This document shows positions 43,321-49,458 of a DNA stretch of 50,096 nucleotides, in pieces. The translations under genes and the position numbers were made by a program. The stretch comes from an uncultured Ardenticatenia bacterium. GTDB lineage: Bacteria; Chloroflexota; Anaerolineae; 4572-78; NAK82. Under the pieces are notes generated by a model. The model saw only the letters and a program-made list of their open reading frames with translations, had not been told where the DNA came from and did not search any database. Within the stretch, counting starts at the first letter, position 1, and each line of letters begins with the position of its first letter. Location of the stretch: positions 1 through 50,096 of the forward strand of contig CAKZLO010000010.1 in assembly GCA_937127125.1 (NCBI GenBank). Reading direction: 5' to 3'.

Positions 43321-43350
43321 ATTATAGCATTGGCCATAAGGCGTTTACAA
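43321..43350 (-). promoter_or_regulatory. Promoter of the DUF2723 gene, leaderless
   Basis: On the minus strand TTGTAA (43345-43350), an 18-base spacer and TATAAT (43321-43326). The predicted start falls at about 43314, one base from the A of the ATG at 43313. No ribosome site exists. Confidence 0.65.
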
Positions 43351-43491
43351 TGTCCAAACGTGTTTTCCTTGTGAAACCAGAAGCGCGCCGTCCATCACCA
43401 CGCCGGCTGGTTGTTCAAATATGGGGTGCCTCTGAGTGGATAACCCTAATAGGATCTTGTTGTCATCTCTTGCTGCCGTGCAGGGATTGTC

Positions 43492-43559
43492 CGGTGTAGG
43501 CGACAGTGTCACCAGTCTCTGCGTAGCGAATTTTCCCCTACTGTTCTCCGGCTACACCG
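43492..43559. other. Long nested inverted repeat in a gene-free region
   Basis: CGGTGTAG (43492-43499) pairs with CTACACCG (43552-43559) and, inside, ACAGT (43503-43507) pairs with ACTGT (43540-43544). It is upstream of the promoters on both strands and thus may be a regulatory site, a fold of a longer RNA, or a remnant of a mobile element. Not identified. Confidence 0.4.
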
Positions 43560-43635
43560 CGCCCAGGATAACCAACAACATTGCAGTACTCGTAGCGATA
43601 CCAAAACAAACCTTGAAAACGATCCGAAAAAACTC

Positions 43636-43664
43636 TTGACGTAATAGCAAACTGTTGATATAAT
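43636..43664 (+). promoter_or_regulatory. Strong promoter with no protein gene downstream
   Basis: TTGACG (43636-43641), a 17-base spacer and TATAAT (43659-43664) miss consensus by one base. The predicted start is near 43671. It overlaps palindromes GTGT-ATA-ACAC (43670-43680) and ACATTCGAATGT (43679-43690). The next + strand gene, mraZ, is 740 bases away and has its own consensus promoter. Confidence 0.8.
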
Positions 43665-43670
43665 ATGTAG

Positions 43671-44005
43671 TGTATAACACATTCGAATGTTCCCTTTAGC
43701 ACCAGGGAACAGGCTGGTACGTTGATTGTTGAATACTCGCACGCTGCTGGCCGTTTCTACCTGGTGCAAGGCGATTTTCTCGTCTAGCCCTCCGTAGTTT
43801 GTGCTATCCCGCATCGATCACTGCCAAGTAGAACGCACCCGCAGCGTGGATCTCCGCAGACTTGTCCAATTGTTTTAACAATTTAGTTCTACACTGCGCA
43901 GATCCTCCACTTTGATCCCTTGCCTGTCGGTGAGTCACCGCCACATTTGTGGAGTGTGGTGGCGTCGGATTGCGCAACCGTAGGGTTGTAGAGCATTTCG
44001 ATGCT
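43671..44005 (+). ncRNA. Candidate large structured RNA
   Basis: No convincing reading frame exists on either strand. Starting from the strong promoter there are hairpins at 43688-43711 (7 bp), 43868-43883 (AATTGT with ACAATT), 43928-43940 (CGGTG-agt-CACCG), 43975-43988 (CAACC with GGTTG) and 43992-44005 (AGCAT-TTCG-ATGCT). A 7-bp pairing 43828-43834 with 43886-43892 crosses a stem 43846-43859 with 43894-43910, which would be an H-type pseudoknot. The core sequences of tmRNA, RNase P, 6S and SRP RNA were not found. The 3' end is undefined; 44006-44287 shows further weak inverted repeats and no gene. Confidence 0.4.
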
Positions 44006-44287
44006 ACTGCTATCTGATATGTGGTTGCCCTGGCTGCGTATCGAACTTTTCACTAAGTGGGAGAGAGTGGAGGGGCAGCACAATTTGCGTTCCGTTCCAG
44101 ACGCGCAGAAAAAATTTTAAGGTTCGGACCGTTCGACATCGCTGCGGCTGGAGCTCTCTCGCGAGCGCCGCAAGAAGTTGTATCATGACATAACTAGAAT
44201 ACAACATATTGTGCAGAGCAAGGTTTGCGTATGATGCCTATTTTGCAGGCAAGACTGGGAGGTTAATGCGTTAAGTCGGAAAAGCCA

Positions 44288-44317
44288 TTGACACGATAGG
44301 GAGGATAGTGGTATAAT
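44288..44317 (+). promoter_or_regulatory. Consensus promoter of the mraZ (dcw) operon
   Basis: TTGACA (44288-44293), an 18-base spacer and TATAAT (44312-44317) are perfect consensus hexamers. Predicted start near 44324, with a leader of ~86 bases that can pair CCGGA (44344-44348) with a later TCCGG. Confidence 0.88.
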
Positions 44318-44341
44318 TTGGGTTGAAGTGGATCAAAGTGG
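44315..44341 (+). promoter_or_regulatory. MraZ-type operator: three 10-bp-phased boxes
   Basis: AATTTGG (44315-44321), GAAGTGG (44325-44331) and AAAGTGG (44335-44341) recur every 10 bases, each with a 3-base spacer. This matches the direct-repeat binding sites of MraZ (TGGG-type in E. coli, AAAGTG-type with 3-base spacers in mollicutes). They sit across the -10 and transcription start, as expected for autorepression. Confidence 0.75.
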
Positions 44342-44409
44342 GGCCGGAGGCCTTAAAACCCCTGTTCCGGTGTCCACGATGGAATCCCGGCGGGAGGAGA
44401 TGTTCTCCA

Positions 44410-44835
44410 ATGCTTATGCTTGGTACATACCTGCACAGCCTCGATCCAAAGGGACGTCTCACGATACCCGCCCGATTCCGTGACGAACTCACCCCAGGGA
44501 TAGTAATTACCAAAGGGATAGGCAATTATCTTGAGCTCTATCCACACAATGTATTCGAAGTGTTTGCGAAACGTGTGGAAGGAGTCCCTGTGCCGGATCG
44601 TGATCTAGCACGCTACGTCTTTGCAAATGCATCATATGAGGTACCAGATCGACAGGGGAGAATATTAATACCCCAAATGTTGCGTGAGCATGCTCATCTA
44701 ACACCAAATGGCGAGGTGCTGATCGCTGGTGTTGGTAACCATCTCGAGATATGGAATCGTGAGCTTTGGGATGCTAAGATGGCTGGGATCACGACCGCGA
44801 TGCTTGAGGAAAAGCTAATCCAGTATGGTATTTGA
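44410..44835 (+). CDS. mraZ: Transcriptional regulator MraZ
   Basis: This 141-residue protein is built of two SpoVT/AbrB-like repeats, with DPKGRLTIPARFRDEL near the N-terminus and the second repeat near VPDRQGRILIPQMLREHA. MraZ forms ring oligomers and controls the division and cell-wall operon. ATG 44410 lies 11 bases after GGAGGAG (44392-44398); a frame-compatible longer start at 44323 would include the operator and is not supported. It is the first gene of the dcw cluster, and its likely binding boxes lie just upstream. Confidence 0.93.
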   Translation: MLMLGTYLHSLDPKGRLTIPARFRDELTPGIVITKGIGNYLELYPHNVFEVFAKRVEGVPVPDRDLARYVFANASYEVPDRQGRILIPQMLREHAHLTPNGEVLIAGVGNHLEIWNRELWDAKMAGITTAMLEEKLIQYGI

Positions 44836-44861: not shown

Positions 44862-45791
44862 ATGCACATCCCTGTGTTGATACAAGAGGTGTTAGCAATG
44901 CTCAATCCGCAGCCAGGACAGTGGTTTATCGACGGTACAGTTGGCACGGGTGGGCATGCTCAAGCTATCCTGGAGGCAACTGCTCCGGATGGTCGACTTC
45001 TAGGATTGGATGCAGATCCAGACACGCTTGAAGTAGCGCACGAACGTTTGAAAACCTATAGTGATCGAGTCTGTCTCGTCAACGCAAACTTTGCCGACTT
45101 GGCTGAGGTAGCCCACAATTTGGGTTTCTTTCCAGTTCATGGGGTCTTGCTCGATCTGGGGATCTCATCGCGGCAATTGGAGGCGGCTGAAAGAGGTTTT
45201 TCTTTCCAGGTTGAAGGTCCCCTAGATATGCGATACAGCCCGAGCTCATCGGTGACGGCATACGACCTGGTTAATAGCCTGCCAGAAGAGGAATTGGCTG
45301 AGTTGCTCTATCGTTTTGGTGAGGAACGGCGCAGTCGGATAATTGCACGCGCAATTGTGGCAGCACGACCGGTCTCGACGACCACTCAGTTAGCCGAAAT
45401 CGTGACTCGTGCAGTTGGTGGGCGACGTGGCGCGCGTCTCCATCCTGCTACGCGTACGTTTCAAGCGCTGCGTATTGCGGTGAATAACGAGCTGGAAGCT
45501 CTAGCGCGTGCTTTGCCCTCAGCTACCAGTGTATTGATGCCCGGAGGTAGACTGGCGGTCATCGGTTTCCATTCTTTGGAGGATCGCATTGTAAAGGAAT
45601 ATTTCGCGCGAGAGGCCAGAGATTGTATATGCTCGTCGGCGTCCTATGTCGTGCCGTGCACGTGTGGTCATCGTGCCACTTTGCGCATCGTCACGAAGAA
45701 GCCCGTGGTACCAAGCGCCGAGGAGATCAGGATGAATGTGCGTGCTCGTAGTGCTAAATTGCGTGTCGCCGAGCGCAGGGGGTTTGAATAG
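44862..45791 (+). CDS. rsmH: 16S rRNA (cytosine-1402-N4)-methyltransferase
   Basis: This 309-residue protein has the SAM-binding motif [10 protein letters not shown] (24-33), [11 protein letters not shown], the long insert with GPLDMRYSP, and [15 protein letters not shown] and [10 protein letters not shown] near the C-terminus, all classical MraW/RsmH signatures. It modifies C1402 in the ribosomal decoding centre. It follows mraZ by 26 bases. The ATG is preceded by only a weak ribosome site. Confidence 0.95.
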
Positions 45792-45795
45792 GTCT

Positions 45796-46194
45796 ATGAA
45801 CACTCGAACTTCTCCCCAGATTCAAACCTTGCTTCGTCCTGGCCACCTGATGCATCGTTTCATGGGGCGGATAGGACTGAGGGACACTCTTGGGCTGTTG
45901 CTGATGATCTTCATTGTCAGCCTTATCGGGTGGTTATATCTAATACAGGCACATGCCATTTCTGCGATCAATCTCCAGATTGAGGAATCTCGGCAGAAGC
46001 TCGAGGAGATCGAAGCCGAGAACGCAGCACTTCGAGTTGAGATCGCGAAGTGGGAGTCCCTCCCACTCGTGGAAGAGCGGGCACGTGAGCTGGGTTTTGC
46101 CCCAGCTACCAACGCATTCTATTTATCGGTTCCGGGTTACTCGGTCGAAGAAGCTTCTGTGTGGGAGGCTAGTCGGCTTGAGATTAACCCGTAG
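45796..46194 (+). CDS. ftsL: FtsL/DivIC-like cell-division protein
   Basis: This 132-residue protein has a cytoplasmic N-terminus of ~32 residues, one membrane segment (about 33-53) and then a coiled coil (INLQIEESRQKLEEIEAENAALRVEIAKWES) ending in ARELGFAPA. This is the layout of FtsL, a bitopic division protein that bridges FtsB, FtsQ and FtsI/FtsW. The sequence is divergent, and its identity rests largely on position between rsmH and ftsI. It starts 4 bases after the rsmH stop. Confidence 0.8.
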   Translation: MNTRTSPQIQTLLRPGHLMHRFMGRIGLRDTLGLLLMIFIVSLIGWLYLIQAHAISAINLQIEESRQKLEEIEAENAALRVEIAKWESLPLVEERARELGFAPATNAFYLSVPGYSVEEASVWEASRLEINP

Positions 46195-46225
46195 TGTATC
46201 CTTGGACTGACGGACGTGAGTTTTT

Positions 46226-47986
46226 ATGGCGGTTAGTCGCGAAACTCGTTTACGTGTTCTGATCGTGATGGCATTGCTGGCGATTGCCTTGTTAGTGTTG
46301 ATGGGCCAGCTATTACGTTGGCAGGTTTTTGACCGGGCCACTCCTCTGGCGTATGCCAAACGTGGAGAAGGAGGACAAGTCCAAGAGACTCTTGAGCCGC
46401 GCAGGGGTCTCATCTTTGACCGCGATGGGATCTTGCTGGCGTCCAATCTAACTACCTACAGCGTGGGTGCTTCGCCGAATGCTATGCCTGATGAGGCTTA
46501 CCGTCGTAGGTTTGCCGAAAAGATTGCTCCATTGCTGGGCCAGGACCCAGCCGCCGTTATGGAGAAAATAGCGGATACGACACGTGTGTACGTCCGACTC
46601 GAAGATCACGTTTCGCAGGCGACGGCACGCGAGATTGCAGATCTGGGTTATCTGATAGTCACGCTCGAGGAGCGTAGCCAACGTATCTACCCACGGGGCA
46701 CACTTGCAGCCCATCTGCTAGGTTTTGTGACAAGCGATTTGGCGGGCTATCGTGGCAGCTATGGAGTCGAAGGTTTCTATGAAAGTGTGCTGCGAGGTAA
46801 GCCAGGTAGCGGTGTCGCTGAGCCTGACCCTTGGGGCAAGCCAATTCCTGTGGCGCGGGCTCAGTACACGCCTCCTGAAGATGGGAAGAACTTGTATCTA
46901 AGTGTTAGGTATACAGTGCAGCACATCATCGAACGTGAGCTAGCGCAAGCGCTAGAGGACTCGGGTGCTGAAAGTGGCACTGTAGTGGTGTTACAACCCC
47001 ACACAGGTGCGATCCTCGCGATGGCCAGCCTACCGGCCTATGATCCTAACCGCTATGCCCAAGAGACCTATGAAAGCTTTATCGATCCTGCAATTAGCAA
47101 GGTTTACGAGCCGGGTTCTGTCATTAAAGTGGTGACAGTGGCAGCTGCGCTGGATTCAGGCGTGATATCTCCTGATGAGATCCTATATGACCCTGGCGCA
47201 ATCGAAGTGGGCGGCAGCCCTATTTACAATCCGGACAAGCAGGCATATGGCCAGGTTGATCTCACTACGGTCTTGGGTAAGTCTCTAAATGTGGAAGTGG
47301 CCCAGATCGCGGTCCGATTGGGGCCTGAGCGTTTTTATCATTATTTGCGACGTTTCGGGTTTGGCAGTGCTACAGGGGTTGATCTGGCTGGCGAAGTGAC
47401 TGGTGGTTTCAAGACCCCAGATGATCCTGAATGGTCAGAAAGCGATCTCGGCAGAAACAGCTTTGGTCAGGCGATGGCTGCAACTCCCCTTCAGGTTGCG
47501 GTGGCGCTTGCGTCCATTGCGAATGGCGGCTTACTGATGAAGCCATATGTGGTTCAGGCAATTGCGGACAATAATGGCCATAGTGTCACGACGGCATCGA
47601 AACCGATACGGCGTACTGTCACAGCCCAAACCGCACATGCTGTAACGAGAATTTTGGAGAAAGCTGTTGAGCAGGATACGAGTCTCGCCCAAGTACCGGG
47701 TTACCGGGTGGCGGGCAAATCGGGGACTGCTCAAGTATACGTGGCGGGAGGATATCATCCCACAGCCACTATTGCTTCGTTTGCGGGTTATCTGCCTTCT
47801 AATGATCCGGCAGTGCTTATTCTGGTAGTGCTGCGACGTCCTCAAACTTCACCATGGGGTTCGCAAGTAGCGGCACCAGTGTTTGCCCGCATTGCCAAGC
47901 AGCTTATGGTGCTGTTAGATGTGCCTCCTGATGTAGTGCGCGAGCGAGTCACGAGCTCGTCGACAGCTGTGGTGGTGCAATGGTGA
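46226..47986 (+). CDS. ftsI: Penicillin-binding protein 2/3-type transpeptidase
   Basis: This 586-residue class-B PBP has a single N-terminal membrane segment (about 11-32), a dimerisation domain (RRGLIFDRDG near 60) and a transpeptidase domain with S298-V-I-K301, S353-L-N355 and K498-S-G500. It crosslinks septal peptidoglycan at the outer membrane face with FtsW. There is no PASTA domain. It is followed directly by murF with a 7-base overlap, whereas in most dcw clusters murE comes here. Confidence 0.93.
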   Translation: MAVSRETRLRVLIVMALLAIALLVLMGQLLRWQVFDRATPLAYAKRGEGGQVQETLEPRRGLIFDRDGILLASNLTTYSVGASPNAMPDEAYRRRFAEKIAPLLGQDPAAVMEKIADTTRVYVRLEDHVSQATAREIADLGYLIVTLEERSQRIYPRGTLAAHLLGFVTSDLAGYRGSYGVEGFYESVLRGKPGSGVAEPDPWGKPIPVARAQYTPPEDGKNLYLSVRYTVQHIIERELAQALEDSGAESGTVVVLQPHTGAILAMASLPAYDPNRYAQETYESFIDPAISKVYEPGSVIKVVTVAAALDSGVISPDEILYDPGAIEVGGSPIYNPDKQAYGQVDLTTVLGKSLNVEVAQIAVRLGPERFYHYLRRFGFGSATGVDLAGEVTGGFKTPDDPEWSESDLGRNSFGQAMAATPLQVAVALASIANGGLLMKPYVVQAIADNNGHSVTTASKPIRRTVTAQTAHAVTRILEKAVEQDTSLAQVPGYRVAGKSGTAQVYVAGGYHPTATIASFAGYLPSNDPAVLILVVLRRPQTSPWGSQVAAPVFARIAKQLMVLLDVPPDVVRERVTSSSTAVVVQW

Positions 47987-49458
47987 GATCTCGGATGAGT
48001 GAGCAAGTGACTTTAACATTGTCTGAGGTCTTGGCTGGACTCACTGGCTGGACAGAATGGAGTGGAACGATAGCCAACACTCCTATCAGCCAGGTGATCA
48101 TTGACTCACGGCAGGCATCGTCGGGTGCTATGTTTGTCGCACTTCCTGGCAAGCAAGTCGATGGTCATGACTATGTGGCCGACGCTTTCCAGCGTGGAGC
48201 CATCGTGGCATTAGTGCACCATCCTGTGCAGGGAGATTGGGGTACCATCGATGCGACAGCTGTCGATTCGATGCCGAAGAATCTCGATGAGCTGCGATTA
48301 CCAGTGTGTGTCAGGGTGCTAAACACGTTGAGCGCCCTCCAGCGTCTGGCTGCCTATTGGCGGAAGAAGTTTTCCGTGCGCGTCGTTGGCATCACGGGTA
48401 GCGTCGGAAAGACGATGACGAAGGAACTCACTTGGGCGGTTCTGAGCCGCCGCTTCTCCACCTTGAAGAACCCTGGCAACCTCAACAATGAGATAGGGCT
48501 GCCTCTAACGTTGTTACAGCTGCGTCCCACTCATGAACGTGTCGTCCTGGAAATGGGGATGTACAACGTAGGGGAGATAGCTCAACTGTGCGCAATCGCT
48601 TGTCCTCAAGTGGGAGTAGTGACGAACGTCGGTCCAACCCATCTAGAGCGTCTGGGCAGTATCGAGCGCATTGCTGAGGCAAAATCAGAGCTGGTACAGG
48701 CATTGCCTCCGGGTGGCACTGCAGTGCTCAATCACGATGACCCGCTGGTGCGCGCAATGTCTGGCAAGGTGACGAAAGGCGTGCGCGTGTTCCACTATGG
48801 CCTCACCTCAGAGGCAGATTTGTGGGCTAGTGATGTATTGAGTGAAGGATGGGAAGGAATTCGCTTTGTATTACATTATGGACGTGAGGCCGTCCACGTT
48901 AAAGTTCCTCTTTTGGGACGCCACAGCGTTCATAATGCTTTGTGTGCCACAGCAGTAGGGCTCATCGAAGGGATGCACTGGGAGGAGATCCTTCTCGGTT
49001 TGCAGGATAGCTCTGTGCAATTGCGTTTGGTAAGCGTGCCCGGCATAAACGACTCGATCATACTCGATGATACTTATAATGCCAGCCCAGTATCCACCAT
49101 TGCAGCACTCAACTTGCTGGATGACCTGACATCTAGTGGGCGCAAGATAGCTGTCTTGGGCGACATGGCCGAATTGGGAGAGTTTGCGGAAGAAGGACAT
49201 CGCAAAGTGGGCTGCCGAGTAGTTACTACTGCTTCGCTCCTGGTCACAGTTGGGTCACTCGCACGGCTTATTGCCGAGGAGGCTCGCGCCTGTGGGATGC
49301 CAGCTGAAACAATTATTCAGGTTGCAACTAATCAGGAAGCTATCGCTCATTTGCGTCAGCTCGTTCAGCCGGGGGACATCATTTTGGTGAAAGGCTCGCG
49401 TTCTATGGCGATGGAGGAGATTGTAGAAGCTATTCAGAAGGCTGAGGGCGGTCGCTGA
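47980..49458 (+). CDS. murF: UDP-MurNAc-tripeptide-D-Ala-D-Ala ligase
   Basis: This 492-residue Mur ligase has the ATP loop GITGSVGKTMTKE (137-149; most family members read GSNGKT or GTNGKT), the NPGNLNNEIGLPLTLL segment, NVGPTHLERLGS and DDTYNASPVS, which points to MurF rather than MurE. It adds the D-Ala-D-Ala dipeptide in the cytoplasm, completing the pentapeptide precursor for MraY. ATG 47980 overlaps ftsI by 7 bases; ATG 47995 is an alternative start. It ends one base into mraY. Confidence 0.92.
   Translation: MVRSRMSEQVTLTLSEVLAGLTGWTEWSGTIANTPISQVIIDSRQASSGAMFVALPGKQVDGHDYVADAFQRGAIVALVHHPVQGDWGTIDATAVDSMPKNLDELRLPVCVRVLNTLSALQRLAAYWRKKFSVRVVGITGSVGKTMTKELTWAVLSRRFSTLKNPGNLNNEIGLPLTLLQLRPTHERVVLEMGMYNVGEIAQLCAIACPQVGVVTNVGPTHLERLGSIERIAEAKSELVQALPPGGTAVLNHDDPLVRAMSGKVTKGVRVFHYGLTSEADLWASDVLSEGWEGIRFVLHYGREAVHVKVPLLGRHSVHNALCATAVGLIEGMHWEEILLGLQDSSVQLRLVSVPGINDSIILDDTYNASPVSTIAALNLLDDLTSSGRKIAVLGDMAELGEFAEEGHRKVGCRVVTTASLLVTVGSLARLIAEEARACGMPAETIIQVATNQEAIAHLRQLVQPGDIILVKGSRSMAMEEIVEAIQKAEGGR

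Follow-up and report, generated by a model that had tools for sequence, protein, structure and literature searches.

A candidate structured leader RNA upstream of mraZ in one genus of Chloroflexota, resembling UpsM in layout

UpsM is a small RNA derived from the leader of the division and cell-wall (dcw) cluster of Rhodobacter sphaeroides, where it is abundant and stable and is processed by RNase E with Hfq (PMC5089854). It is confined to Rhodobacteraceae; its transcription stops at an intrinsic terminator 84 nt ahead of mraZ, which has no promoter other than that of UpsM (PMC5089854). The mraW RNA motif (RF01746) is a candidate structured RNA found with a dcw gene in Actinomycetales (PMC2864571). 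Judged from its sequence, the locus analyzed here resembles UpsM in having a promoter far upstream of mraZ and a putative extended leader that begins with a structured RNA of about 200 nt. Knowledge of regulatory RNA in Chloroflexota is scant, as it is for control of the division cluster by RNA.

The window, i.e., the whole stretch of 50,096 nucleotides that was analyzed, lies on contig C10 of a draft genome of an uncultured Ardenticatenia bacterium (G000). It was compared with two genomes of the same genus (G001 and G002), giving three genomes in total. The following features frame the region upstream of mraZ.

43337 (start), minus strand: TMEM260-like gene, upstream neighbor of the P1 region in G000
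43636-43664, plus strand: promoter P1, TTGACG-17-TATAAT, 11/12 matches
44108-44122, plus strand: conserved DNA block, AGAAAAAATTTTAAGG
44178-44213, plus strand: conserved double palindrome, TTGTATCATGACATAA..ATACAACATATTGTG, candidate operator of P2
44288-44317, plus strand: promoter P2, proximal to mraZ, TTGACA-18-TATAAT, 12/12 matches
44325-44344, plus strand: MraZ-type operator repeats, GAAGTGGATC AAAGTGG, with a 10-bp period
44410-44835, plus strand: mraZ (start at 44410), with rsmH and other dcw genes downstream

The promoter proposed in the first-pass annotation (TTGACG-N17-TATAAT) is indeed present as P1 and is kept in both relatives, including the flanking CTC...TAAT and TAATATA. The region was rightly described as gene-free: among the frames tested on both strands of 43338-44323, none matched Pfam. 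All three genomes share this layout ahead of mraZ, but the gene beyond P1 changes from the TMEM260-like gene (G000) to rpsT (G002) or a LysM-domain gene (G001), the latter two read from translations; in G001, a small frame without identity lies between the LysM-domain gene and P1. In both relatives P1 is followed by the conserved block, about 200 bp of diverged DNA, AAAAATTTTAAGG, the double palindrome and P2 with AAAGTGG repeats. That the block stays before mraZ while its other neighbor changes speaks for a link to the dcw cluster. As read from translations only, the dcw order at 45736-49458 is mraZ, rsmH, an ftsL-like gene, a penicillin-binding protein gene and a murF-like gene, with murE absent between the last two.

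P2 lies about 650 bp downstream of P1 and is conserved in the relatives. The AAAGTGK-type repeats number two in G000 (one of them GAAGTGG) and three in each relative, as expected of an MraZ operator, and the AAAGTGGNNN repeats at P2 fit the published MraZ site (AAAGTGKN3)3, described in Mollicutes (PMC5282649). By its motifs, P2 is an ordinary autoregulated mraZ promoter, and the repeats suggest that this autoregulation is conserved in Chloroflexota. The double palindrome, located about 75 bp upstream of P2, reads ACACAACATATTGTGT in G002, where its centers are about 21 bp apart. It is likely an operator of P2, at which a regulator of the dcw promoter likely acts. Its second half resembles an NrdR box, and NrdR was considered and rejected, as the 21-bp spacing of the centers does not fit the spacings in PMC12051234. 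A block of the AAATTTTAAGGTTTC type also precedes mraZ in a further genus of the family (G006, L035), so that its conservation extends beyond the genus.

The features of the putative RNA itself are as follows.

43672-43885, plus strand: conserved structured RNA domain, modelled part 43673-43848
43689-43710, plus strand: hairpin H1, GUUCCCU (43689-43695) paired with AGGGAAC (43704-43710), identical in 3/3 genomes
43699-43767, plus strand: possible pseudoknot, H1 loop GCACC (43699-43703) with GGUGC (43763-43767)
43712-43735, plus strand: nearly invariant 24-nt linker, GGCUGGUACRUUGAYUGUUGAAUA, candidate partner-binding site
43740-43848, plus strand: long hairpin, with outer helix 43740-43747/43841-43848 and inner helix 43752-43760/43828-43835
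43750-43950, plus strand: stretch with C-over-G skew in all three genomes, tentatively a Rho-loading or unstructured region

P1 and the first ~100 nt behind it are retained in both same-genus genomes. Between G001 and G002, identity reaches 80-93% at 43687-43773, comparable to the mraZ coding region (mostly 77-97%), drops to about 50% in the loop between 43773 and 43834, and returns to 81% at 43834-43863, a span in which the 3' strand of the long hairpin lies. It is at background level past ~43885, with 33-53% across most of 43908-44051. As the identity profile falls off in this way, we place the conserved RNA at about 180-215 nt and not at 330; its 3' limit (~43850-43885) was estimated from the point at which identity drops. 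The first-pass annotation had treated the whole ~330 bases as one structured RNA. This was not confirmed: in G000 the fold of the 349-nt stretch is more stable than that of its shuffles (z -3.58), but the homologous stretches of the relatives fold at z -1.68 and -0.28, and identity is at background after ~43885. Nor is the core fold of the relatives exceptionally stable (z -1.01 and +0.80).

Such ordinary fold energies in the relatives would be expected if the folding were due to chance and the conserved part consisted of a promoter and slowly diverging DNA only. We consider this very improbable, since one and the same helix comes out on top in each of the three genomes, at homologous offsets, and the identity of the block equals that of the mraZ coding region, whereas adjacent DNA is near background. 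We slid the 5' strand from each genome along ~600 nt of the sequence downstream of it in that genome; the long helix was the best duplex in 3/3 genomes, at offsets of 53, 63 and 62 nt (-29.6, -35.4 and -25.7 kcal/mol), and only 1, 0 and 2 of 200 shuffled strands equalled it within 130 nt. Three of the eight pairs of the outer helix show compensatory double changes; four are invariant, and in the remaining pair one cell is broken. This covariation was equalled by 23 of 500 row shuffles of an alignment of three rows only; the statistics are modest because only three sequences are available. In G000, the columns of the inner helix do not align. For each of the three cores, the minimum-energy fold contains both H1 and the outer helix, at 65 C as well.

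These compensatory changes also bear on a reading of the conserved blocks as DNA operators of a tandem-promoter region, in which P1 would only add transcription and the RNA would have no role. The sites at 44108-44122 and 44178-44213 in the same spacer do resemble DNA sites, and H1 is an inverted repeat of the kind that a regulator could bind. Yet, conservation starts right after the P1 start and runs for ~100 nt, including the long invariant linker, and the helix changes are compensatory over a comparable ~100 nt; thus, we regard a purely operator-based explanation as unlikely.

A frame of 12 codons (ATG TTC CCT ... TGA, from 43687/43688), which reads M-F-P-x-x-P-G-N-x-L-V-x-stop in two genomes, overlaps H1 and raises the idea of a leader-peptide attenuator. 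We find this scarcely credible: G001 has no start codon, no ribosome-binding site is visible, and there is no attenuator terminator. The mini-frame does not look coding, because all its variable codons are non-synonymous and the ATG is lost in G001.

As for tertiary contacts, the H1 loop could pair with the segment after CCU, which is GGUGC in G000 and GGUAU in the relatives. In the latter, the pairing becomes UACC/GGUA: two pairs differ on both strands and one cell is broken, which makes it a better pseudoknot candidate than the crossing stems proposed earlier. Those stems, GTAGAAC/GTTCTAC and GTGGATCTCCGCAG/CTGCGCAGATCC, do exist in G000 but not in the relatives. As a conserved feature, the pseudoknot built from them has to be abandoned: GTAGAAC already forms the 3' strand of the inner helix of the conserved hairpin (43752-43760/43828-43835), so that the pseudoknot competes with that helix, while for the second stem the best helix lies elsewhere in the relatives, and 47 and 139 of 200 shuffles equal it. 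The palindrome noted at the predicted start (ACATTCGAATGT, 43679-43690) is similarly present in G000 and absent from the relatives. The TTCG-capped hairpin was found near 43992-44005.

No Rfam family was found at the locus, either in the window at the gathering score or in the region at E up to 1; the Rfam 15 covariance models included mraW (RF01746), SRP RNA and riboswitches. In the relatives, the search returned one weak match, outside the element. The earlier statement that known large RNAs do not match agrees with the presence of 6S, RNase P and tmRNA genes elsewhere in G000, the RNase P match scoring just under the family cut-off. Promoter, sequence and helices are all conserved in both same-genus genomes. 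Of the refuting outcomes named in the first-pass annotation, neither a lack of conservation in relatives nor a hit to a known family was thus observed. What survives of the original suggestion is therefore a putative, undescribed structured non-coding RNA by the division cluster, conserved and without an Rfam match, but shorter than proposed and with a different pseudoknot.

Two covariance models were built from the element. R1 (92 positions) scores the three genomes at 101-113 bits and R2 (182 positions) at 162-202 bits. At E 0.05, R2 found nothing besides the three genomes among 396 genomes of the class. The R1 hits outside the genus that were inspected (23-28 bits; G345, G376) were rejected because they fall within long protein-coding frames, and no Rfam family was found among the weak model hits. 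A DNA pattern run over 400 genomes of the phylum matched only the genome of origin and one further site with 3 mismatches; in viral contigs it had no match. Whole-genome model searches showed the element to be absent from other genera of the family, and none was seen when the mraZ upstream regions of G004-G006 were read. Scans over 40 genomes used strict filters, with which diverged copies could be missed. The element looks genus-restricted within the genomes compared.

Comparison of the three genomes shows that P1, the sequence and helices behind it, the linkage to mraZ and a second promoter with operator repeats are conserved. From these features we infer transcription, a 3' end, a partner and an effect on dcw expression. 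P1 would drive a structured RNA of ~180-215 nt forming the head of a long alternative mraZ/dcw leader (~738 nt). H1, with its loop able to pair with the CCUGGU segment, the linker and the long hairpin would make up a compact domain, which probably binds a protein, an RNA or a small molecule. Most P1 transcripts would probably stop or be processed before P2, yielding a stable small RNA, and some would read through into mraZ, while MraZ-autoregulated P2 would secure the basal supply of division proteins. The RNA would then work like UpsM, i.e., as a leader-derived RNA of the division cluster. We give about an even chance to this proposal as a whole, that of an undescribed, genus-restricted, UpsM-like dcw leader RNA driven by P1, with partial release of a small RNA and basal expression from P2.

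The domain lies ~525-560 nt from the mraZ start, which is far for a cis-acting switch, and because this intervening DNA is partly unconserved, a separate RNA species may be argued for. It could be an independent trans-acting sRNA gene that is merely upstream of mraZ, ends before P2 and acts on distant targets or a protein. Consistent with such a gene, ~200 bp of unconserved DNA separate the RNA domain from the P2 elements, P2 is complete by itself, and the linker has no significant pairing to the mraZ leader. On the other hand, the position before mraZ is constant in 3/3 genomes while the other neighbor differs, no second copy of the element was found elsewhere in the three genomes, and these genomes hold no extended complement of the linker with up to 3 mismatches. 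Nor was an intrinsic terminator seen at the domain end in any of the three. Altogether, we treat the trans-acting sRNA as a tentative possibility. Both the linkage to mraZ and the distance are compatible with a UpsM-like leader, part of whose transcripts terminate early to give a small RNA. Rho was found only in G000, no Rho RNA-binding domain being detected in G001 or G002, perhaps because both are incomplete drafts, and we therefore consider Rho-dependent termination weak, despite a C-rich bubble in 3/3 genomes. It is doubtful that the element represents a novel class of leader RNA that senses a ligand or protein and controls the division and cell-wall cluster of thermophilic Chloroflexota, giving a free sRNA on early stop and a dcw leader otherwise.

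Among known RNAs, 6S RNA is likewise stand-alone, structured and ~180 nt long, but genuine 6S genes (RF00013) are located elsewhere, on contig C44 of G000 and in G002. The mraW motif shares the association with dcw genes, yet RF01746 gave no match here at permissive thresholds. With UpsM, which was compared with it by layout, the element shares its restriction to one clade. In contrast to UpsM, no intrinsic terminator was found between the RNA and mraZ, and a second strong, conserved promoter (P2, 12/12) is present where UpsM has no other; thus, we did not file the element as UpsM. It is nevertheless defined and testable, with a base-pairing model. If transcribed, it would be the second independent clade-specific structured RNA heading the dcw cluster, after UpsM, which would suggest that such control arises repeatedly.
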